Of a stretch of 23,926 nucleotides of DNA, positions 6,285 to 21,585 are shown piece by piece. The stretch's first letter is position 1, and every line of letters begins with the position of its first letter. Both the position numbers and the translations under genes were made by a program. A model generated the notes under the pieces. That model was given only the letters and a program-made list of their open reading frames with translations, was not told where the DNA came from and did no database searches. The stretch comes from a virus: IMG/VR virus record IMGVR_UViG_3300006332_000143, positions 1 to 23,926 of that record; one strand, written 5' to 3'.

Positions 6285-6414
6285 TCTCCAATCGCTCCGA
6301 AATCAACGGTTTAAAAAACAGGGGCCGCCCTATACAAAAATCGGAAATCGTATCCTCTACAAAAGAGAGGATATTGAAACCTTTGAAATTCAAAATCAAA
6401 CATCCACCAAATGA
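6232..6414 (+). CDS. Small helix-turn-helix DNA-binding protein (excisionase/AlpA-like)
   Basis: This 60-residue protein has the look of a MerR/excisionase-type winged helix: FLTATELARRW forms the first two helices, RNQRFKKQGPPYTKIGNRI is the recognition helix and wing, and LYKREDIETF closes the fold. Such proteins bind DNA as excisionase-like architectural factors or as small regulators. The gene overlaps the recT-like gene end by 53 bases and shares an ATGA overlap with ssb, so it belongs to the recombination operon. It is a candidate, though unproven, for binding one of the palindromes in this window. Confidence 0.7.
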   Translation: MTSPFLTATELARRWRTNLQSLRNQRFKKQGPPYTKIGNRILYKREDIETFEIQNQTSTK

Positions 6415-6854
6415 AATCAATTCCAACAATCCAAGCATTCGGCAGAGTAGTTGCAGAGCCGGAGGCTAGATATTTTGAAAACGGAAATTCTGTTTGCAAA
6501 ATTGTTATCTACCTAAACCAAAAATCCAAAAAAGATGATCAAGGAAATTGGGTTGAGACTCCACCTTTAAAAGCTCGGGCGTCGGTCTGGGGTAAACAAA
6601 TGGAGTCAGTTGTTAACACTGTCAAAAAAGGAGACGCCGTTTTTGTTTCTGGAAATCTTGAACAAGAATATTGGAACGACAAAAAGACAGGCGAATTAAG
6701 GACGGCTCTTGCCATTAACTCAGCGTCAGTTGTTGCAGTAGAAGCAAAAAAAGCTGGCCAAACTCCACCGCCTCCAGCTCAACAACCTCAAGCATCAGGA
6801 ACAAATTGGCAATCTTCGCCAGTTGTTCCAAGTAACAGTGATATTCCTTTTTAA
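6411..6854 (+). CDS. ssb: Single-stranded DNA-binding protein
   Basis: This 147-residue protein is a typical SSB. An OB-fold occupies roughly residues 5-112, with landmarks GRVVAEPEARYFENG, VWGKQMESV, VKKGDAVFVSGNLEQEYW and the closing strand ending in INSASVV. A proline- and glutamine-rich linker follows (QTPPPPAQQPQ), and the protein ends in NSDIPF, the acidic-hydrophobic tip through which SSBs recruit partner proteins. The start ATG overlaps the stop of the HTH gene (ATGA). It protects single-stranded DNA during replication and works with the RecT-like annealing protein upstream. A terminator-like hairpin follows. Confidence 0.92.
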   Translation: MKSIPTIQAFGRVVAEPEARYFENGNSVCKIVIYLNQKSKKDDQGNWVETPPLKARASVWGKQMESVVNTVKKGDAVFVSGNLEQEYWNDKKTGELRTALAINSASVVAVEAKKAGQTPPPPAQQPQASGTNWQSSPVVPSNSDIPF

Positions 6855-6910
6855 ATAAAACACGCTAAAAATAGATAGGGCGTTGCACCGTCCTACTCCT
6901 CACACTTCAT

Positions 6911-6939
6911 GGCCCCACCCCATAGGGGCCTCTCTTTTT
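6911..6939 (+). terminator. Intrinsic terminator after ssb
   Basis: GGCCCC (6911-6916) pairs with GGGGCC (6925-6930), followed by TCTC and five Ts. The following gene starts only eight bases after the T-tract, with ACCCACC in between, so this hairpin may also act as an attenuator or leader structure for that gene. No convincing separate promoter is seen between it and the start codon. The rest of the stretch from 6855 holds nothing else I can identify. Confidence 0.75.
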
Positions 6940-6946
6940 ACCCACC

Positions 6947-7213
6947 ATGAAAAAAATTGTTCCAATCGTCTTGGCTGTTAATTCCGTTTTTCTTTTAGGA
7001 ATTATTGGCGGCGGTTTTTTTGGTTATAGATATATTACTAATCCAAAAACTCAAGAAAAACTGATTAAAGAAATTGGTGAAAAAGTTTTGGGTGGAATCA
7101 ATATTCCAAAGGTTCCATCATTTAGCGGTGGAGCAATAGTGCCTGATACTAAAGCGGGGCAAGCAGCGGGCCAAGGATCAACAATCCCGCCGATGGCCGT
7201 CCCTAGATTCTGA
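6947..7213 (+). CDS. Small membrane-anchored protein, function unknown
   Basis: This 88-residue protein has one N-terminal hydrophobic segment (about residues 4-28, rich in glycine at its end), followed by a charged helix and a flexible tail of Gly, Ala and Pro ending in PPMAVPRF. It probably sits in the inner membrane with its tail exposed. I do not recognise a specific family. The start codon is directly preceded by ACCCACC, itself directly after the ssb terminator. It could be a lysis accessory or a superinfection-related protein, but no sequence evidence decides this. Confidence 0.6.
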   Translation: MKKIVPIVLAVNSVFLLGIIGGGFFGYRYITNPKTQEKLIKEIGEKVLGGINIPKVPSFSGGAIVPDTKAGQAAGQGSTIPPMAVPRF

Positions 7214-7237
7214 TTGTTTCATTTCGTTAAGATTGAC

Positions 7238-7274
7238 GGAATGCCCTAGACCTCAAGCATTACATATTTAATAT
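7238..7274 (+). promoter_or_regulatory. Copy 7 of the palindromic operator-promoter element
   Basis: This is the only plus-strand copy of the 26-bp palindrome found at 13-16 kb. The arms are GGAATGCC (7238-7245) and, at the far end, GCATTAC (7257-7263). A -10 candidate TAATAT (7269-7274) sits at the same distance from the palindrome as TATATT does in the other six copies. TAGACC (7247-7252) could act as a poor -35, 16 bases away. The downstream gene is the 53-residue protein at 7299. The -35 is weaker than in most other copies, so promoter activity is less certain than the operator match. Confidence 0.6.
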
Positions 7275-7298
7275 GTGGAGGTCTTTCCAATTATTTTC

Positions 7299-7460
7299 AT
7301 GGAATTAATCACATTGAAAGGTAAAAACGGAGCCGCTCTTAGAACAGCCGCACTCAGCAACCAAAAGACACTTGAACAAAGAGTGACCAATCTCGAAGAA
7401 GAAATGAGAACTCTTTTCTGGATCGTCTCTTTGCTATCAGTCTTTACCCTTCTCACCTAA
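7299..7460 (+). CDS. Small coiled-coil protein with C-terminal membrane segment
   Basis: This 53-residue protein has a heptad-like stretch (LSNQKTLEQRVTNLEEEM) followed by a hydrophobic C-terminal segment (LFWIVSLLSVFTLL). The pattern recalls the small XhlA-type lysis or holin-associated proteins, but this is by architecture only. An in-frame ATG at 7275 would add eight residues; it abuts the predicted -10 box, so the ATG at 7299 is preferred, with GGAGGT some 16 bases upstream. It has its own predicted promoter and a strong terminator immediately after the stop, so it is a single-gene unit. Confidence 0.55.
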   Translation: MELITLKGKNGAALRTAALSNQKTLEQRVTNLEEEMRTLFWIVSLLSVFTLLT

Positions 7461-7467
7461 ATTAAAC

Positions 7468-7494
7468 GCCCTCACTTGAGGGCTCTTTTTTTTT
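7468..7494 (+). terminator. Intrinsic terminator after the 53-residue gene
   Basis: GCCCTC (7468-7473) and GAGGGC (7478-7483) form a six-base-pair stem with a four-base loop. It is followed by TC and a run of nine Ts. This is a strong rho-independent terminator for plus-strand transcription. Confidence 0.85.
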
Positions 7495-7506: not shown

Positions 7507-8043
7507 ATGGGCTGGGATGGAAAGACGGCCCACCCCTTTGGCGAGGCAAAGCCGTCAGAGGGGCCAAAATTTTATGGTGAACTTATGGGATCTCTACAAC
7601 CTCCTAGCCGTTTGAGTTGCTGGAATTATTTAATTGAGTCAGTTGATCGAGTAGTTGATGGAGATACTATTGACATCACAATCAATCTTGGATTTTCGCT
7701 TTGGACGAGGCAACGAGTCAGAATTGCTGGGGTGGACACGCCGGAAAAAAGGACAAGAGATCCAAAAGAAAAAGAACTTGGCATCGATGCGACCAATTGG
7801 CTAAAAAGAAAACTGGATGAAGCCAAGGCAGAAAAAAAACCTCTTTATGTGAGAACCGAATTGGGTAGAGGATCGACAGGAAAATATGGAAGGCTTATTG
7901 GTTGGCTTTATGTAAATGATTCACCGATTTCTATTAATGAGGAAATGATTGCTGAGGGTTACGCTTGGGAATATGACGGCGGAACTAAGAACAAGAATTT
8001 TGAAGAATTAAAATTTATAAGACGTCAAAAAGGAACTTTATAA
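7507..8043 (+). CDS. Thermonuclease-family (SNase-like) nuclease
   Basis: This protein of up to 178 residues belongs to the staphylococcal nuclease family, calcium-dependent enzymes that cut DNA and RNA. The active-site pattern is intact: DGDT at 51-54, R72 eight residues before E80 in RIAGVDTPE, and R129 in KYGRL. The conserved GYAW motif follows at 151-154. There is no signal peptide, so it probably works inside the infected cell, perhaps degrading host nucleic acid. The first 26 residues precede the fold and their DNA is rich in short inverted repeats; the ATG at 7585 is an alternative start. The next gene begins directly at the stop codon, so the two are coupled. Confidence 0.85.
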   Translation: MGWDGKTAHPFGEAKPSEGPKFYGELMGSLQPPSRLSCWNYLIESVDRVVDGDTIDITINLGFSLWTRQRVRIAGVDTPEKRTRDPKEKELGIDATNWLKRKLDEAKAEKKPLYVRTELGRGSTGKYGRLIGWLYVNDSPISINEEMIAEGYAWEYDGGTKNKNFEELKFIRRQKGTL

Positions 8044-8859: not shown

Positions 8860-9541
8860 TGTGAACATGATTTGGCAAAGTATTAGTGACCATAGTGTTC
8901 ACAATTTCAACATCTTGACAAAGTAATTCATATTTACTTCCGGGCTTAAATCTTATATTGGCTTTAAATAATTCCCCGCATTTCTGAAGTCTTCCCATTT
9001 CTAAGGCAAGCCGCTTATCATTCAAATCTAATTCAATTAGTTCAACAATTTTGGCTGCCCCTTCCCTGCACTTTCTAACAGCTCGGCGGTCCAGATTAAT
9101 ATTCCAGCTCAGGCTGATTCCCGGCGAGATTGCCACATTCGATTTTTGATTTAGCTCTACTGTTTTATAACCAAGGATCGCACCGGGATTGTCTGGGGCT
9201 CCGTCTGGACCATCAACTTGGTTCCCATTATCGTCTGTAGTTATTAAACCTGTTAAATCTCTTTCATCATAAATTGGCTCTAATTTCACATCTTTATGAG
9301 GTGTCTGATAACTGAGGTTAGAGGTAACAAATGGCTGGATCACCAAAGTGTCAGACTGACATTGCAATTGTTGGGTACTGTAAAGATTTGTAAACTGTCT
9401 ACTCGGTACGTTTTGTACGGCCATATTCGTCACACTGCCGGATGATGAAGCTGATGGCGAATTTGTCATGGAAACGCCGTTACTTAATGCGGGTGATTGA
9501 ACGGCTAAAGAAAGAAATAATGTCGATAATATTTTTTTCAT
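8825..9541 (-). CDS. Exported cyanophage-type protein, function unknown
   Basis: This 238-residue protein starts with a clear signal peptide (MKKILSTLFLSLAVQSPALS). The next part contains SGSVTNMAVQNVPSRQF, then QCQSDTLVIQPFV. The second half has a predicted helical segment with conserved-looking cysteines (AVRKCREGAAKIVELIELDL, LQKCGELF, LLCQDV). I recognise this order as a family common in T4-like marine cyanophages and some Synechococcus genomes, with no known function; this is from memory. It overlaps the preceding gene by four bases (ATGA), so it is translated from the same message as the two exported proteins upstream. Confidence 0.7.
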   Translation of the reverse strand: MKKILSTLFLSLAVQSPALSNGVSMTNSPSASSSGSVTNMAVQNVPSRQFTNLYSTQQLQCQSDTLVIQPFVTSNLSYQTPHKDVKLEPIYDERDLTGLITTDDNGNQVDGPDGAPDNPGAILGYKTVELNQKSNVAISPGISLSWNINLDRRAVRKCREGAAKIVELIELDLNDKRLALEMGRLQKCGELFKANIRFKPGSKYELLCQDVEIVNTMVTNTLPNHVHTISSEVNAKED

Positions 9542-10571: not shown

Positions 10572-10784
10572 TCAGAGGTACGCTTTGCTTATCTGGGCCA
10601 AAAGGCCGAGGATCGCCAAGATCGCCGCCGAGATTGCCCCTGCTTGAAAGACTCTTTTTTCTAGTTGTCTTACTCGTTCTTCGAGGTCGTCGTTTCGTTC
10701 TTTAAGCCTAGAAACTCGCATATCTAAAACGACTATTCTTGTTTCCTGAGTTGCATCAAGGCTGAGGCTGCTGTCCGTCATCAT
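10572..10784 (-). CDS. Coiled-coil protein with C-terminal membrane segment (XhlA-like layout)
   Basis: This 70-residue protein has a long heptad-patterned helix (VVLDMRVSRLKERNDDLEER, then VRQLEKRV) and one C-terminal membrane helix (AGAISAAILAILGLLAQI). The arrangement matches XhlA/haemolysin-type phage accessory proteins that accompany holins. That function is inferred from layout, not from a conserved motif. Two ATG codons stand in a row at the start (10784 and 10781). The gene overlaps the end of the upstream 169-residue gene by 29 bases. Confidence 0.6.
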   Translation of the reverse strand: MMTDSSLSLDATQETRIVVLDMRVSRLKERNDDLEERVRQLEKRVFQAGAISAAILAILGLLAQISKAYL

Positions 10785-11265
10785 TTAATTTTTTTGGTGG
10801 CTCTTCTGTTTTATCGGTGTCTAAAAGAATTACACCGTCAGGCGTTACAAATTGAATTGGAACTTTGAACTTTACAACGTGACCATCTGCGGTTCCTCCA
10901 TTGCCTCCATTGCCTCCATTGCCTTCAACTTTTTCTTTATTTTGTTGCTCTACTTTGTAGGTTCCATCGTCTCTTTTTTTTGCTGATTTCTCTAATCCAA
11001 AACTACTTAATGCGGACGCCAAAAGACTGGCTGGAAAAGTGATGTCCTGTTTTTCTCCTGACGAGATCCCCGGAATTTTTGGGAGGTAGTTTAATGTAAC
11101 CAGACTTCCGCTCCAGACCACTATGAGCAGCCGGACAAAAATTGATATGAAGTTACTTAGCATATCAAATTCATCCTCGTCTACATGCACTTTCTCTTTC
11201 ATCTTTTGAAATAAATTCTTCTTTTTTTCTTCTGTTTCTTTTGGTGTTTCGTTGGTGGGTTCCAT
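10756..11265 (-). CDS. Cyanophage-type membrane protein, possibly holin-like
   Basis: This 169-residue protein begins with a charged region (KKKNLFQKMKEKVHVDEDEF), followed by a hydrophobic segment at about residues 38-62 containing VWSGSLVTLNYLP. A second weakly hydrophobic stretch includes TFPASLLASALSSFGLEK. The tail is hydrophilic, with a short GGNGGNGG repeat and a Pro- and Gln-rich end. The VWSG and TF-AS-ASFG pattern is one I recall from conserved small membrane proteins of marine cyanophages and cyanobacteria, sometimes suspected as holins. It is the first gene of its operon and starts 14 bases from the divergent gene at 11280. Confidence 0.6.
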   Translation of the reverse strand: MEPTNETPKETEEKKKNLFQKMKEKVHVDEDEFDMLSNFISIFVRLLIVVWSGSLVTLNYLPKIPGISSGEKQDITFPASLLASALSSFGLEKSAKKRDDGTYKVEQQNKEKVEGNGGNGGNGGTADGHVVKFKVPIQFVTPDGVILLDTDKTEEPPKKLNDDGQQPQP

Positions 11266-12986: not shown

Positions 12987-13015
12987 TTGCTTTTAGGCTT
13001 GGTGGGTATGTATTA

Positions 13016-13052
13016 AATATATATACGGAAAGCTTAGAAGTCAAGGCATTCC
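13016..13052 (-). promoter_or_regulatory. Copy 1 of the palindromic operator-promoter element
   Basis: Read on the minus strand, the 26-bp palindrome (13052-13027) has arms GGAATGCC and AGCTTTCC. It contains the -35 box TTGACT, and 17 bases on is the -10 box TATATT (13021-13016). It drives the operon of the 41-residue peptide, the 139-residue protein and the oxygenase-fold protein. The divergent gene at 13076 lies on its other side, so regulator binding could affect both directions. Confidence 0.75.
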
Positions 13053-13075
13053 AAAATTATTCACATTAGGCAACC

Positions 13076-13400
13076 ATGGAAAATTCCTACGAATTCGGTA
13101 CAAAGGGATGGCTCAGGGAAAATGAACGCCGCCAAAAGCTTATGGACATTTGGTATATCGAATGCGGGCGGCACTTAAAAGACTCTGAGGGAAATCCCAC
13201 CCACCCTCAACATGCGACGTTTACAGGATTGGCAAAAGAAGCGAATTGCAAACTCTCTCAGAATCTCCATGGAGGAACTAGAGAGACGGATTGTTCTACA
13301 GGAAATAATTAACACAGTTGGATATGACCCCGAGACTGTGAAAGAGGCTCAGAGGCAATGGATACGGCTTCAAATGCGTTCAAACAATCGCTCCATATAA
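13076..13400 (+). CDS. Small unknown protein interrupted by a +1 frameshift
   Basis: The frame starting at 13076 encodes MENSYEFGTKGWLRENERRQ and, further on, HPQHATFTGLAKE, then reads through 20 unconvincing residues to a stop at 13312. The +1 frame from about 13240 continues with a helical segment (RIANSLRISMEELERRIVLQ, EIINTVGYDPETVKEAQRQW) to the stop at 13400. Removing one A from the run in GGCAAAAGAAG (13230-13240) joins the two into a protein of about 107 residues with a coherent HP-x4-FTGL helical character. This may be an indel in the sequence, a real inactivating mutation or a programmed shift. Function is unknown. The end overlaps the convergent gene at 13370. Confidence 0.5.
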
Positions 13401-13555
13401 ACAGGGTTGGCCCAGAATTCGGCCTCCCCTGAACCGCCCCTGATTCTTACCATTCGATAAAGAATCCAGCCTGTCGTGTCTGATTGTTCAACACATCGCC
13501 AAGTCGTCTTGTCGGTCTTGTGGGTGAATGTTTGGCCGATGTATTCAGAAAACAT
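13370..13555 (-). CDS. Small beta-rich protein, function unknown
   Basis: This 61-residue protein has alternating polar and hydrophobic strands (TWRCVEQSDTTGWILYRMVR, then EAEFWANPVYM) and resembles the many short phage proteins with a single small beta barrel. The ATG at 13555 is chosen over 13582 because GGGAGGA lies eight to nine bases upstream of it, the best Shine-Dalgarno sequence in this area. It overlaps the end of the 67-residue gene by 11 bases, implying coupling. Confidence 0.6.
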   Translation of the reverse strand: MFSEYIGQTFTHKTDKTTWRCVEQSDTTGWILYRMVRIRGGSGEAEFWANPVYMERLFERI

Positions 13556-13748
13556 TGGCTTGTCCTCCCAAAAAAGAGTCATTATTAATTCGCTCCAAAG
13601 TGATTGATATTTCTTTTTTTAAATAAGGGATTCTTTCATTTTCTTTTTCTGGGAGCATTATAAAAATATCTCTTTTTGCAATTTGGCAAAGATAGTTAAG
13701 GATGAATTCCAGATGCTCTTGTGTGGTTGCCTGAGGGTTGATATACAT
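13545..13748 (-). CDS. Small helical protein, function unknown
   Basis: This 67-residue protein appears helical (EHLEFILNYLCQIAKRDIFI, LKKEISITLERIN) with no signal peptide. It is not recognised. It lies directly downstream of the terminator of the next gene, and its leader contains ACCCACC twice before the ATG. There is no own operator-promoter, so expression needs read-through of that terminator or an unseen promoter. It is coupled to the 61-residue gene downstream. Confidence 0.5.
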   Translation of the reverse strand: MYINPQATTQEHLEFILNYLCQIAKRDIFIMLPEKENERIPYLKKEISITLERINNDSFLGGQANVF

Positions 13749-13770
13749 TTTTTTGGTGGGTTAGGTGGGT

Positions 13771-13800
13771 AAAGAAAAAACCGCTGTTTAAGCAGCGGTT
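13771..13800 (-). terminator. Intrinsic terminator of the 61-residue gene at 13788
   Basis: On the minus strand, AACCGCTG (13800-13793) and CAGCGGTT (13786-13779) form an eight-base-pair stem with a six-base loop, followed by TTTTTC and TTT. The stop codon of the gene lies in the loop. Confidence 0.85.
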
Positions 13801-13973
13801 GAGAATGTGCCGTTTTCATATCCAACGATGTTGAATAGAACCTTGCCTCTAGGCTTGCGGCAAGTGAAGACGACTCTTTCATTTCCTTTGTGTGTGTAAG
13901 GCTTAGCAGAGAGAACTGTGTATGTGTAGCCTTTTGCACATTTGATTGTTTGGAGTGAAGTTGATGGAGTCAT
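13788..13973 (-). CDS. Small accessory protein in its own promoter-terminator cassette
   Basis: This 61-residue protein is basic and beta-like (KGYTYTVLSAKPYTHKGNER, VVFTCRKPRGKVLFNIVGYE). No family is recognised. It has its own operator-promoter (13998-14034), an AAAGGA ribosome-binding stretch about ten bases before the ATG, and a strong terminator that begins inside the coding sequence. Its leader and cassette layout match those of the 83-residue gene at 14995, suggesting cassette duplication with unrelated cargo. Confidence 0.6.
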   Translation of the reverse strand: MTPSTSLQTIKCAKGYTYTVLSAKPYTHKGNERVVFTCRKPRGKVLFNIVGYENGTFSTAA

Positions 13974-13997
13974 TTGTGTTTCCTTTGGTATGTATTA

Positions 13998-14034
13998 AAT
14001 ATATATCGGGAATGCCTAAGTTGGCAAGCTTTAC
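13998..14034 (-). promoter_or_regulatory. Copy 2 of the palindromic operator-promoter element
   Basis: The 26-bp palindrome (14034-14009) has arms GTAAAGCT and GGCATTCC. The -10 box TATATT lies at 14003-13998. The -35 is TTGCCA with an 18-base spacer, weaker than in copies 1 and 3. The AT-rich stretch upstream (TTAATTAAATGT) could be an UP element. It drives the gene at 13973. Confidence 0.72.
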
Positions 14035-14062
14035 ACATTTAATTAACATTCTGTTGTAAAGC

Positions 14063-14088
14063 AAAAAAAAAAGAGCCTTGCGGCTCTT
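14063..14088 (-). terminator. Intrinsic terminator of the gene at 14087
   Basis: On the minus strand, AAGAGCC and GGCTCTT pair with a GCAA loop (14088-14071), followed by a run of about ten Ts. The stop codon overlaps the stem. Confidence 0.88.
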
Positions 14089-14425
14089 AGTCGTATGTGT
14101 CAAAACTTACTGGCTGGCCTGTCCAAGGTTCAATAGAACCTCTGTAACTCATGTAAGCGGTTTGACCATGTAGCTCATCATTTTGAATCTTCAATCTGAA
14201 CTCTTGTCCTCTTTTTTCGGTTTTTAAATCAGGAAGTTTTGTCCCTGCCTGACCATAACCATCATGAGAATGAACAATGCTTGGAACTTTTTTGAACCAT
14301 ACAGTTTTTGCTGTTGTGCGTGTTACCTCATAAAAATCAACAAGAGTTTGAGTTGCTCCCCATTGCATTTGGCAGATCAAACCTTTTGTGAAAGTTTGAG
14401 TTTTAGTTGCTGGAGTTGAAGTCAT
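14087..14425 (-). CDS. Phage/plasmid-type small protein (WG-QT-DFY signature), function unknown
   Basis: This 112-residue protein has the segment LICQMQWGATQTLVDFYEVT followed by AKTVWFKKV. I recall a similar W-G-x-x-QT-x-x-DFY-x-V pattern in short proteins of many phages and plasmids, where the function is unknown. The second half is hydrophilic, with SIVHSHDGYGQAG and SYRGSIEPWTG. It occupies a complete cassette: operator-promoter at 14454-14490, a leader with CCACCAAGG, and a terminator starting at its stop codon. No signal peptide is present. Confidence 0.65.
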   Translation of the reverse strand: MTSTPATKTQTFTKGLICQMQWGATQTLVDFYEVTRTTAKTVWFKKVPSIVHSHDGYGQAGTKLPDLKTEKRGQEFRLKIQNDELHGQTAYMSYRGSIEPWTGQPVSFDTYD

Positions 14426-14453
14426 TTTTAAAGCCTTGGTGGATTACTTTTTT

Positions 14454-14490
14454 AATATAAAAGCGGAACGCCTAAAAGTCAAGGCATTCC
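14454..14490 (-). promoter_or_regulatory. Copy 3 of the palindromic operator-promoter element (best match)
   Basis: The palindrome (14490-14465) has arms GGAATGCC and GGCGTTCC, differing at one position from a perfect inverted repeat. The -35 TTGACT and -10 TATATT (14459-14454) are separated by 17 bases. This is a near-consensus sigma-70-type promoter whose -35 is buried in the palindrome. It drives the 112-residue gene. Confidence 0.8.
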
Positions 14491-14514
14491 GCATTTATTT
14501 ACATTGTGTTGTAA

Positions 14515-14706
14515 TTACTTTTTTTTAGGCTCATAAAGCGGGACTTCATAATCGAAGTCACATTCTTTAAAATCAACTTTTGGCTGTTTGCTCAAAAGTT
14601 TTTCATAAAAAGGAATTAAATCTCGACGGCTTGGGAGGTTGCATCCAACCAACTCAATTAATTCCATCAATTCGTTTTCGTTAACTTCAAGGCGAAATTT
14701 GTTCAT
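14515..14706 (-). CDS. Small acidic protein downstream of a terminator hairpin
   Basis: This 63-residue protein starts MNKFRLEVNENELMELIELV and ends with PLYEPKKK; it contains CNLPSRRDLIPFYEKLL and looks like a helical, acidic cytoplasmic protein. It is not recognised. Longer upstream frames exist but would run through the coding end and terminator of the previous gene, so the ATG at 14706 is used. The leader is TTTTTACCCACCAAAAAATC directly after that terminator. It has no operator-promoter of its own and may depend on read-through. Confidence 0.55.
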   Translation of the reverse strand: MNKFRLEVNENELMELIELVGCNLPSRRDLIPFYEKLLSKQPKVDFKECDFDYEVPLYEPKKK

Positions 14707-14721
14707 GATTTTTTGGTGGGT

Positions 14722-14761
14722 AAAAAGAAAAAATCTCTGAGCTTTAAACTTGCTCAGAGAT
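14722..14761 (-). terminator. Intrinsic terminator of the gene at 14744
   Basis: On the minus strand, ATCTCTGAGC (14761-14752) pairs with GCTCAGAGAT (14742-14733), a ten-base-pair stem with a nine-base loop, followed by TTTTTTC and five Ts. The stop codon is in the loop. Confidence 0.88.
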
Positions 14762-14995
14762 AACTTGACGGATTGCTTTTTTAACTGTTGCTCTTTTGTA
14801 AGAGTCAAGAGCTTGAATTAAGCAGTCTTCACCGTGGAAGACTTTCCCGAAAGGTAGGTTGCGTCCGCCAACTGTTTTTGTTGAAACGGTGCAATGTGGA
14901 AAGCGACCTGAATTAACAACAACACAGAGATTTTGTTTTGCTGAGATCTGGATTGTGTATCCAGTGATTGTTTCAGATGCGTTTGAGATTTCCAT
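14744..14995 (-). CDS. Small accessory protein, function unknown
   Basis: This 83-residue protein has a beta-like N-terminal half (ETITGYTIQISAKQNLCVVV, NSGRFPHCTVSTK) and a helical C-terminus (LIQALDSYKRATVKKAIRQV). It has no signal or membrane segment. No family is recognised with certainty. Its cassette is complete: operator-promoter at 15020-15056, AAAGGAA before the ATG, and a terminator overlapping the stop codon. Confidence 0.6.
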   Translation of the reverse strand: MEISNASETITGYTIQISAKQNLCVVVNSGRFPHCTVSTKTVGGRNLPFGKVFHGEDCLIQALDSYKRATVKKAIRQVISEQV

Positions 14996-15019
14996 TTGAA
15001 GTTCCTTTGGTATGTTTTA

Positions 15020-15056
15020 AATATAAACCCGAATTGCCCGAAAGTAAAGGCATTAC
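15020..15056 (-). promoter_or_regulatory. Copy 4 of the palindromic operator-promoter element
   Basis: The palindrome (15056-15031) has arms GTAATGCC and GGCAATTC. The -35 TTTACT and -10 TATATT (15025-15020) are 17 bases apart. An AT-rich TTAATTAAATAT lies just upstream. It drives the 83-residue gene. Confidence 0.75.
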
Positions 15057-15083
15057 ATATTTAATTAATAATTAGTAACAAAC

Positions 15084-15111
15084 AAAAAAAAAGAGGTGGT
15101 TAACCTCTTTT
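15084..15111 (-). terminator. Intrinsic terminator of the gene at 15100
   Basis: On the minus strand, AAAGAGGT (15110-15103) pairs with ACCTCTTT (15097-15090) around a five-base loop, followed by a further run of Ts. The stop codon TAA is in the loop and stem edge. Confidence 0.85.
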
Positions 15112-15372
15112 GCTTTTTCTGTAGTTAGAAACAAAACCTTTTGTTTCTAATGCGGTCAATGGAGCAACATGATCTGGGTTTCTGTGATCAATGAGTTTTA
15201 AGTATTCCTCAACGGTGAAATTCTTTACAAGGAAATTAATCCAAGTTTTGTAATTTTTGCGGCCATACTTAAAGCGAGCAATAAAGTCTCTGTTGTCTCC
15301 ATAGGTCAGATACATTCCATCCCATACAAATTTTTCTTTCTGAAAGGAATGCTGAGCGATTACAAGTGTCAT
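15100..15372 (-). CDS. Small accessory protein (FIARFKY / NFTVEEY family), function unknown
   Basis: This 90-residue protein contains FIARFKYGRKNYKTWINFLV, then KNFTVEEYLKLID and PLTALETKGFVSNY. I recall this combination of an ARFKY strand, a K-NFT-EEY helix and an LE-KG(F/Y) strand from a short family seen in various bacteria and phages, with no assigned function. It is cytoplasmic by sequence. The cassette has its operator-promoter at 15397-15433, a leader with CTCACCAAAG, and a terminator that starts within the coding end. Confidence 0.65.
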   Translation of the reverse strand: MTLVIAQHSFQKEKFVWDGMYLTYGDNRDFIARFKYGRKNYKTWINFLVKNFTVEEYLKLIDHRNPDHVAPLTALETKGFVSNYRKSKRG

Positions 15373-15396
15373 GAGCCTTTGGTGAGTGACTCCTTT

Positions 15397-15433
15397 AATA
15401 TAAACACGGAAAGCCTAAAAGCAAAAGCTTTTC
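15397..15433 (-). promoter_or_regulatory. Copy 5 of the palindromic operator-promoter element
   Basis: The palindrome (15433-15408) has arms GAAAAGCT and GGCTTTCC. The -10 TATATT is at 15402-15397; the -35 region reads TTTGCT. AAAGGAG follows the -10 box directly. It drives the 90-residue gene. Confidence 0.72.
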
Positions 15434-15448
15434 ATATTTAATTAACAA

Positions 15449-15562
15449 TTAGTTATAAAGGTCTTCATCTTCACAGTCTCCCATGAGCCAATGGTCATCT
15501 CTTACATACTGATAGTCCTCTTTTTCTTCTTTGTTTTTTTCTTTGTCGAGCTCTTTGTCCAT
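15449..15562 (-). CDS. Putative 37-residue acidic peptide
   Basis: The frame from the ATG at 15562 encodes a very charged peptide: MDKELDKEKNKEEKEDYQYV, then RDDHWLMGDCEDEDLYN. It lies between the terminator at 15603 and the operator-promoter at 15397. No clear promoter or Shine-Dalgarno sequence is seen, so it may depend on read-through. The length is too short for confidence, but the start, stop and position between two regulatory signals make it possible. Confidence 0.35.
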   Translation of the reverse strand: MDKELDKEKNKEEKEDYQYVRDDHWLMGDCEDEDLYN

Positions 15563-15602
15563 TTCGGCATGACCTTTTTATCTCTGTCTACATCATGCCA
15601 TT

Positions 15603-15630
15603 AAAAAAGCCTCCTGATTAGGGAGGCTTT
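15603..15630 (-). terminator. Intrinsic terminator of the copy-6 transcript
   Basis: On the minus strand, AAAGCCTCC (15630-15622) and GGAGGCTTT (15614-15606) form a nine-base-pair stem with a seven-base loop, followed by a T-tract to 15603. It ends the short transcript that starts near 15797. Confidence 0.9.
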
Positions 15631-15631
15631 C

Positions 15632-15730
15632 TCACTCTGGAAGTGCCGATGCGTTGCGGTCCTGAAGTAGTAGGAAACGTCTTTTTGAACCCTCAAAAAG
15701 AATAAAAGAGGGGATTTGATCGCAGCTCAT
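15632..15730 (-). CDS. Putative 32-residue peptide, or part of a small RNA
   Basis: The ATG at 15730 opens MSCDQIPSFILFEGSKRRFL, then LLQDRNASALPE, ending at a TGA two bases before the terminator stem. The peptide has a beta-hairpin-like pattern and a purine stretch AGGGA just upstream of the ATG, though the spacing is short. It is the only sensible open frame in the transcript from the copy-6 promoter, whose leader of about 70 bases has several short inverted repeats. The unit could instead be a non-coding RNA of about 195 bases. No family is recognised. Confidence 0.45.
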   Translation of the reverse strand: MSCDQIPSFILFEGSKRRFLLLQDRNASALPE

Positions 15731-15803
15731 ATCCCTGAAAGGCTGACACTTATCTTGTCCAGTGCAGAGGAATCACGCCCGATATGTGACTTAAGGCTCC
15801 CTT

Positions 15804-21393: not shown

Positions 21394-21585
21394 TTACTTC
21401 CTCCGAAATGCTTTTTTGGTTTCTTTGGCGACCTCGGCTTCTAGTTTCTGAGCGGCCTTAAGCCATTCATAAATTTCAGTCACTGTTTCATCGAGGATTT
21501 CGCTAAGGCCCCATCCTGTTAATTTTGACAGGATCAGGACGGCTCTTCTGAACTCTCCGATTTCTGGCCGCCCGACTGGGTAAAA
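21394..21585 (-). CDS. gpE' frame, expressed as a -1 frameshift extension of gpE
   Basis: The -1 frame relative to gpE is open from a stop just upstream of 21590 to the TAA at 21394. It encodes 63 residues including LSKLTGWGLSEILDETVTEI followed by YEWLKAAQKLEAEVAKETKK. The helical EILDETVTEIYEWL part resembles P2 gpE'. There is no good independent start. At 21582-21585 the gpE frame reads ACT TTT ACC, where the tRNA on TTT can slip back one base onto TTT, giving a simple shift site. As in P2 and many tailed phages, a gpE-gpE' fusion would serve as tail assembly chaperone. Confidence 0.7.
   Translation of the reverse strand, partial: FYPVGRPEIGEFRRAVLILSKLTGWGLSEILDETVTEIYEWLKAAQKLEAEVAKETKKAFRRK

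Follow-up and report, generated by a model that had tools for sequence, protein, structure and literature searches.

The stretch of DNA analysed here (the window) is a 23.9-kb virus record, IMGVR_UViG_3300006332_000143, positions 1 to 23,926, whose genes encode a tail sheath, a tape measure and further tail proteins together with a primase, a helicase, an exonuclease, RecT and a single-strand DNA-binding protein (SSB). Megablast of the window against 50,697 phage records gave no match; a single window protein had matches in 409 records, nearly all of which bear cyanophage names. The close relatives (L002, L003, L015, L018 and others) are IMG/VR contigs with about 85–95% DNA identity over long stretches.

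At three loci in the window, a hairpin is followed in direct succession by a T-rich tract, ACCCACC and an ATG: 6911–6947 on the plus strand (locus A), 13800–13748 on the minus strand (locus B) and 14761–14706 on the minus strand (locus C). The preliminary description had reported this succession and its recurrence on both strands, and both were confirmed in the sequence. Its view of the hairpins as terminator-like also held. The hairpins of A, B and C folded at −13.8, −12.2 and −15.2 kcal/mol and all three folded better than dinucleotide shuffles (z −3.1, −4.2 and −3.6, respectively); the T-tracts are broken by C (TCTCTTTTT, TTTTCTTT and TTTTTTCTTTTT). At each locus a co-directional gene begins about 16–31 nt past the stem with no visible promoter, and a consensus scan listed no sigma-70-like site between hairpin and start at any of the three, in agreement with the earlier statement that the gap leaves no room for a promoter.

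A Yfr1-like element at locus A and its counterparts in other phages

Locus A lies downstream of the SSB gene (6411–6854, plus strand; phrog_44, E 1.7e-22; leader ATCCACCAA-ATG) and upstream of an 88-aa gene (6947–7213, plus strand) that encodes a small membrane-protein-like product, is related to phrog_568 by profile comparison and has no promoter of its own that we could see; the ACCCACC leader of this gene occupies 6940–6946. Between the two genes we found an unannotated Yfr1-like small RNA (6876–6939, plus strand). It consists of a 5′ stem-loop, UAGGGCG-UUGCAC-CGUCCUA (6876–6895), an exact copy of the Yfr1 hallmark ACUCCUCACAC (6895–6905; as defined in the accessible part of PMC2190773), a 3′ hairpin recognized by folding and by a terminator scan (6911–6930) and an interrupted U-tract, UCUCUUUUU (6931–6939). 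According to the accessible text of PMC2190773, Yfr1 has a 5′ stem-loop, 16–20 unpaired nucleotides containing ACUCCUCACAC, a 3′ GC hairpin, a U-tail and a length of 54–69 nt. In the window, the 5′ stem has 6 bp strictly before the motif and 7 when the A of the motif is included (6–10 bp in Yfr1), the unpaired stretch between the hairpins (6895–6910) measures 16 nt, the 3′ hairpin has six pairs, all G-C (6–9 bp and GC-rich in Yfr1), and the RNA would be about 62–64 nt long, assuming that it starts near 6877 and includes the whole U-tract. The tail UCUCUUUUU fails a strict NUU rule and passes a relaxed one (5 T of 9).

When the published Yfr1 description was applied through our own implementation with the relaxed tail, only the window, L002 and L003 passed among 1.36 Mb of phage loci, as did 8/8 host Yfr1 loci; in a chance control, planting the 11-mer at random in the phage loci yielded a pass at 46 of 20,000 places. 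The hallmark is exact in the window and in these two close relatives, which retain the RNA, and L003 differs from the window by a compensatory double change, one G-C pair of the 5′ stem having become A-U. The more distant L014 has GCUCCUCACAC, with a mismatch at the first base, and failed our descriptor even with one mismatch allowed.

An Rfam scan of the window at the gathering threshold found nothing, and a permissive scan of 6840–6960 placed RF01116 (Yfr1) at 6877–6932 with 23.5 bits. Since an all-family scan (E up to 1) of L002, L003, L013 and L014 listed nothing, RF01116 had to be queried by itself. In a search of 20 records, it scored 23.5 bits in the window record (E 2.0e-4), 23.5 in L002, 19.5 in L003 and 24.6 in the L014 contig (E 9e-5 to 1.4e-3 over the four), 57–72 bits in 8/10 host genomes and not at all in six further virus records; all phage scores thus lie under the gathering score of 38. 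Upstream of the RNA, a putative −10 region, CGCTAAAAAT (6863–6872, plus strand), was recognized by eye through comparison with the upstream region of a Prochlorococcus yfr1 (L192, CGCTAAAATT): CGCTAAAA is common to both and begins 33 and 36 nt before CTCCTCACAC. Also by eye, CGCTAAAAATAGATAG upstream of the window element resembles CGCTAAAATTAATTAG before Prochlorococcus yfr1, at a nearly equal distance from the hallmark. A blastn search with the window element returned two chance-level Microbacterium phage matches only. Together, these sequence features indicate that locus A is an intergenic, predicted RNA gene with the anatomy of the host small RNA Yfr1, and that the hairpin noticed first is its putative 3′ terminator. 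We found no report of a phage-encoded Yfr1 in the literature on Yfr1 and phages, most subscription journals being outside the coverage, nor in the accessible parts of PMC2518516, PMC6778093, PMC6202907, PMC7368042, PMC1242208 and PMC10811720.

Counterparts of this arrangement occur in other phages. L013 and L014 encode homologues of the 88-aa protein at 37–39% identity, each directly preceded by a terminator hairpin unlike that of the window and without ACCCACC; the L013 contig begins inside the region in front of the homologue, and L014 also has the RNA with GCUCCUCACAC. L094 has two homologues, with no such RNA seen before them. IMG/VR was also scanned for CTCCTCACAC followed by GGGBTTTT, a search that made no use of the 88-aa protein and gave, without a shuffled control, 119 stretches, from which 101 loci were clustered. 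We treated 63 of the 101 as Yfr1/Yfr10-like (38 of type c1, 19 of c2, 4 of c5 and 2 of c8, one c8 locus, L224, being the L014 contig); the other 38 (c6 with 4 loci, small clusters, singletons, some of them coding-like) may be chance matches. As the clusters were picked by motif, its conservation within them follows from the selection, whereas that of the neighbouring gene does not. The start of the 88-aa protein family follows the RNA in 38/44 loci of types c1, c5 and c8 (32/38, 4/4 and 2/2, respectively); profile comparison links the 88-aa protein to the c1/c5 protein family (probability 97.5, E 5.1e-12), and relatives match phrog_568. In 41 of the 44 loci an ORF is found no more than 120 nt upstream, and in 40 of these 41 it is 112–126 aa long. 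In L014 it is a cyanophage outer membrane protein (PF24653, E 6.3e-33), and a c1 fragment matches phrog_417 (E 1.3e-5); this Phage_OMP family is found in 458 phage records, whose names are all cyanophage, Synechococcus, Prochlorococcus, marine or uncultured. Judged from sequence and gene order, then, distant phages carry putative Yfr1-motif RNAs at the same place before a phrog_568 homologue, often behind a Phage_OMP beta-barrel gene.

The RNA takes different forms in these phages. In c1, the motif lies in a stem-loop in which two stem pairs show two-sided changes (6 cells, a value reached by 2/500 shuffles) and the outer pair is unpaired in 10 of the 20 aligned sequences, the alignment holding 20 of 21 distinct elements. 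The c2 form (19 loci) precedes other genes and carries an exact ACUCCUCACAC in a loop closed by an 8-bp stem. Searches by blastn with c1 and c2 elements gave no matches, and CTCCTCACAC followed by a T-run occurred in 0/14 named cyanophage records. Among the c2 loci (e.g. L215, L218, L231 and L248), a gene start of one type follows directly in 11/19, and the product of this gene resembles, by eye, that of window 10756–11265. We considered whether the RNA regulates the OMP gene of its own phage, which is not general: a Yfr1-complementary site at the OMP start was present in 2/41 loci, both c8, and there it overlaps a Shine-Dalgarno-like sequence. Sequences at the Phage_OMP start in L014 (4774; TGTGAGGAG) and L289 (GTGAGGAG) combine a perfect Yfr1-seed match with a Shine-Dalgarno-like sequence.

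In several phage lineages the element immediately precedes the same gene family, a position that would also fit a 5′ regulatory leader of the 88-aa gene. The two hairpins and CUCCUCACAC would then form an attenuator that either terminates transcription or lets it through, and the resemblance to Yfr1 would have arisen by convergence on an anti-Shine-Dalgarno-like sequence. The motif CUCCU is similar to the 16S rRNA 3′ end, and the Rfam score under the cut-off agrees with such an origin. We nevertheless regard this reading as unlikely: the exact 11-nt hallmark sits at the Yfr1 position between two hairpins, the −10 region is host-like, another gene follows the RNA in 6/38 c1 loci, and the c2 form, with its motif in a stem-loop, precedes an unrelated gene family at 19 loci.

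Terminators in front of start codons

Hairpins B and C have a different context from the Yfr1-like element. Hairpin B (13779–13800, minus strand; terminator scan and fold) contains in its loop the stop codon of a 61-aa ORF (13788–13973, minus strand), and hairpin C (14733–14761, minus strand; likewise) that of an 83-aa ORF (14744–14995, minus strand); from this placement of the stop codons we conclude that B and C are the terminators of those ORFs. Hairpin B is retained in L095 and hairpin C in L018. Downstream of B, two ACCCACC copies (13755–13770, minus strand; the first is ACCCATC in L095) lead a 67-aa gene (13545–13748, minus strand) that has no visible promoter of its own and a 94% identical homologue in L095. 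Downstream of C, ACCCACC at 14715–14721 (minus strand) leads a 63-aa gene (14515–14706, minus strand). In L015, which is otherwise collinear, this gene and its ACCCACC are missing together and the terminator and the next promoter are still present, so that the 63-aa gene came or went as a block without either. The three loci are therefore not one thing: A is the terminator of a predicted small RNA, and B and C are ordinary gene terminators. A contrast in U-tract purity between these two groups of terminators was dropped because L015 retains an interrupted tract in front of a promoter.

The surroundings of B and C hold further elements. At 13000–15450 (minus strand), with copies in L015 and L018, small genes are repeatedly preceded by a promoter-like module, in which a TTGACT-type −35 surrounded by an inverted repeat (GGAATGCC..GGCGTTCC and variants) is followed by TATATT and the leader ACATACCAAAGGA; the arrangement has the appearance of a phage regulon whose operator covers the −35. 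A candidate non-coding RNA of about 190 nt with a GC terminator at its end lies at 15600–15800 (minus strand); it has no Rfam match at the gathering score, and about 60 nt of it are 86–92% identical in the otherwise much more distant L009 and L012. In the same position, L018 (9660–9960) has a different putative RNA and terminator, after which come ACCCACC and a new ORF.

Since no promoter is seen in the gap, read-through of the terminator is the simplest account of downstream expression, and the genes downstream of A, B and C probably depend on it. Attenuation, one of the purposes proposed in the preliminary description, thus survives as partial termination with read-through, the likeliest route to downstream expression; of the antitermination, or processing at the hairpin to leave a defined 5′ end, proposed beside it we found no sign. 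Transcription of the three downstream genes from independent promoters, situated in the upstream genes or the T-tracts, appears distinctly unlikely, as no −10-like hexamer was seen between stem and start at the three loci, even though the consensus scan is blind to some promoter types.

A terminator abutting a start codon is a common cyanophage layout. The window has a fourth case, without ACCCACC, at 7468–7483 (plus strand) before the endonuclease gene at 7507. We counted starts within 40 nt of a terminator stem in named phages, using strict scan rules that in the window recover only C and the 7468 terminator (plus one promoter hairpin) and miss A and B. Such starts follow 2/5 terminators in P-SSP7 (including one that separates genes 10 and 11), 6/22 in P-SS2 and 5/10 in S-CBS2 (first 50 kb of each), 2/6 in S-P4 and 2/4 in P-SSM2 (50 kb), 0/5 in Syn5 and 0/4 in S-H1. 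In P-SS2 (L180), near-identical terminators at 9480, 10132 and 10784 stand 28 nt before three tandem transcriptional-regulator genes. Between the 88-aa and endonuclease genes of the window, an inverted repeat with a promoter-like module (7220–7300, plus strand) may be part of another small RNA, whose 3′ end would be the 7468 terminator.

The ACCCACC leader

The window contains 10 copies of ACCCACC, whereas dinucleotide shuffles predict 1.69, and 0/100 shuffles reached 10. Six of the copies lie at most 16 nt upstream of a gene start, preceding five genes, and a seventh precedes an uncertain plus-strand ORF at 13212. We also counted CCACC within 18 nt of starts, with ORFs called by a simple longest-ATG rule and homologues retained save in a non-redundant set of 86. 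It was present at 20/186 ORFs of the clade vs 3/186, 0/186 and 0/186 in control stretches further upstream, at 6/892 ORFs of other phage contigs and at 1/61 ORFs of the more distant relatives L009–L012; P-SS2 (6/70), S-H1 (6/59) and Syn5 (7/52) showed a weak tendency. A host origin of the leader was rejected: Synechococcus/Cyanobium had CCACC near 12/390 starts vs 17, 14 and 21 of 390 in control stretches and Prochlorococcus near 0/63, and the motif, not being enriched before host starts, is therefore not a general host start signal.

Nine leaders were compared with those of close orthologues. Seven are kept in all close orthologues found, namely those of the SSB, 88-aa, 70-aa and 41-aa genes (2/2 each), the 67-aa gene (1/1, second copy), the 63-aa gene (1/1) and a tail-region gene (5/5); the leader variant of the 90-aa gene changes in L015, and the 112-aa gene has no orthologue. 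The three starts behind hairpins have no GGAG, GAGG or AGGA nearby. Shine-Dalgarno sequences are not significantly scarcer in CCACC-led genes (2/11) than in other genes (22/75; Fisher p 0.72). Pairing of ACCCACC with a phage RNA was discarded as an idea, the sole candidate complement seen (13199) being kept in neither L003 nor L095.

The same order of elements at three loci, and a fourth in L018 with about 20 nt in between, could suggest that hairpin, T-tract and ACCCACC act jointly, through processing or antitermination, to leave a defined 5′ end. Such a joint mechanism, which we consider very improbable, is largely refuted by the separation of the elements: no terminator stands before the ACCCACC-led starts at 13007 (which follows a promoter-like site) and 21871 and no hairpin before those at L002:1185 and L003:1597, hairpins occur without ACCCACC at 7468 and in L013 and L014, and the leader differs in c1, c5 and c8. 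Exact TTTTTACCCACCATGA occurs in 25 IMG/VR stretches, of which only one is a leader (in L076, which is the L002 contig). Of the single shared purpose proposed at the outset, the recurrence stands and the joint function of hairpin and ACCCACC does not, given that A is the 3′ end of a predicted small RNA and ACCCACC is also found away from terminators. Comparison with other cyanophage contigs, suggested there as a check, likewise gave a divided result, the arrangement being kept in close relatives and the distant L013 and L014 having the terminator without ACCCACC. As read from the sequences, ACCCACC is separate from the hairpin, a clade-specific, start-proximal motif and putative leader that is replaced in distant orthologues.

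The motif might instead play no part in translation and be nothing more than a relic of common descent or a seam at which small-gene cassettes recombined, a possibility raised by the repeated promoter-leader cassettes at 13–15.5 kb and by the block absence of the 63-aa gene with its leader from L015, where comparison of L015:19795–19830 with window 14515–14733 shows TTAC at both ends. We hold this to be somewhat unlikely, as genes that do not belong to the cassettes (SSB at 6411 and the tail-region gene at 21534) have the motif as well, with unrelated flanks, and it always lies near a start. C/A-rich motifs are translation enhancers in enteric bacteria (accessible part of PMC3879156), and the preferred reading of ACCCACC is a short, unstructured, C/A-rich leader that would recruit ribosomes in place of a Shine-Dalgarno sequence.

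Possible roles and comparison with known systems

It is likely, in our assessment, that the window combines a Yfr1-like RNA gene at locus A, ORF terminators at B and C, read-through into the downstream genes and ACCCACC as a ribosome-recruiting leader. Partial read-through would keep expression of the downstream genes lower than that of the upstream product, the effect that Tphi has on T7 gene 11. The phage RNA would be made from a host-type promoter during infection and may pair via ACUCCUCACAC with RNAs of the host Yfr1 network, that is, porin and envelope mRNAs or Yfr2, thereby adding to or competing with host Yfr1. In the accessible parts of the respective papers, Prochlorococcus porins are targets of host Yfr1, whose motif also pairs with Yfr2 (PMC6778093), and envelope genes are repressed by Yfr1 in Nostoc (PMC6974561); most likely, the phage RNA acts through the same motif on the same partners. 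The case appears evenly balanced for the wider proposal that several cyanophage lineages carry their own versions of the near-universal host RNA Yfr1 (two-hairpin) or of Yfr10 (loop) in a conserved module of OMP and small membrane-protein genes, and that in infected cells ACUCCUCACAC serves to take over the Yfr1/Yfr2 network through which the host controls porin and envelope mRNAs.

Yfr1 is among the most conserved cyanobacterial small RNAs and represses porins in Prochlorococcus and cell-wall genes in Nostoc. If the proposal is true, a phage Yfr1 beside a phage OMP would be a testable instance of a virus using its host's small-RNA code, the cell surface would possibly be changed during infection, and there would be an explanation for why diverse phages have a terminator abutting a gene start at this position. 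ACCCACC would add a second, clade-specific start motif for studying initiation without a Shine-Dalgarno sequence.

The window element shares with Yfr1 (RF01116) two stem-loops around an unpaired, exact ACUCCUCACAC, a length of about 63 nt, a GC-rich 3′ hairpin with a U-rich tail and a −10 region of similar sequence and spacing. It differs in being phage-borne, under the Rfam cut-off and interrupted in its U-tail, and in its location, which is not between guaB and trxA; the phage RNAs are flanked by SSB (or Phage_OMP) on one side and a phrog_568-type gene on the other. Elements of types c1 and c2 are closer to Yfr10 as described in the accessible part of PMC6778093, holding CUCCUCACAC in a stem-loop followed by a terminator, whereas the window motif lies between two hairpins and not in a loop (the Yfr1 layout), and the c1 motif differs from Yfr10 in beginning UCUCCU in most copies.

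As for the terminators, the closest parallel is Tphi and gene 11 of T7 (24210 and 24228 in the T7 record), where the terminator separates an abundant product from a promoterless gene that begins about 18 nt later and depends on read-through; in the window loci, too, an intrinsic terminator immediately precedes a gene and the gap contains no visible promoter. T7 gene 11 has a Shine-Dalgarno leader and T7 RNA polymerase transcribes it, whereas the window has ACCCACC, presumably the host polymerase, and a small RNA or small ORFs upstream. The alternation of terminators and promoters between small genes at 13–15.5 kb, with blocks that come and go, recalls the PeSL cassettes of T4-type phages (accessible part of PMC4503421), from which the three loci differ in having a stem-loop without a promoter. 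Finally, ACCCACC resembles the ACA/CA-rich enhancers described in the accessible part of PMC3879156, which are short C/A motifs near starts that raise translation; those act upstream of a Shine-Dalgarno sequence in enteric bacteria, whereas the window motif mostly stands without one and would have an analogous role.
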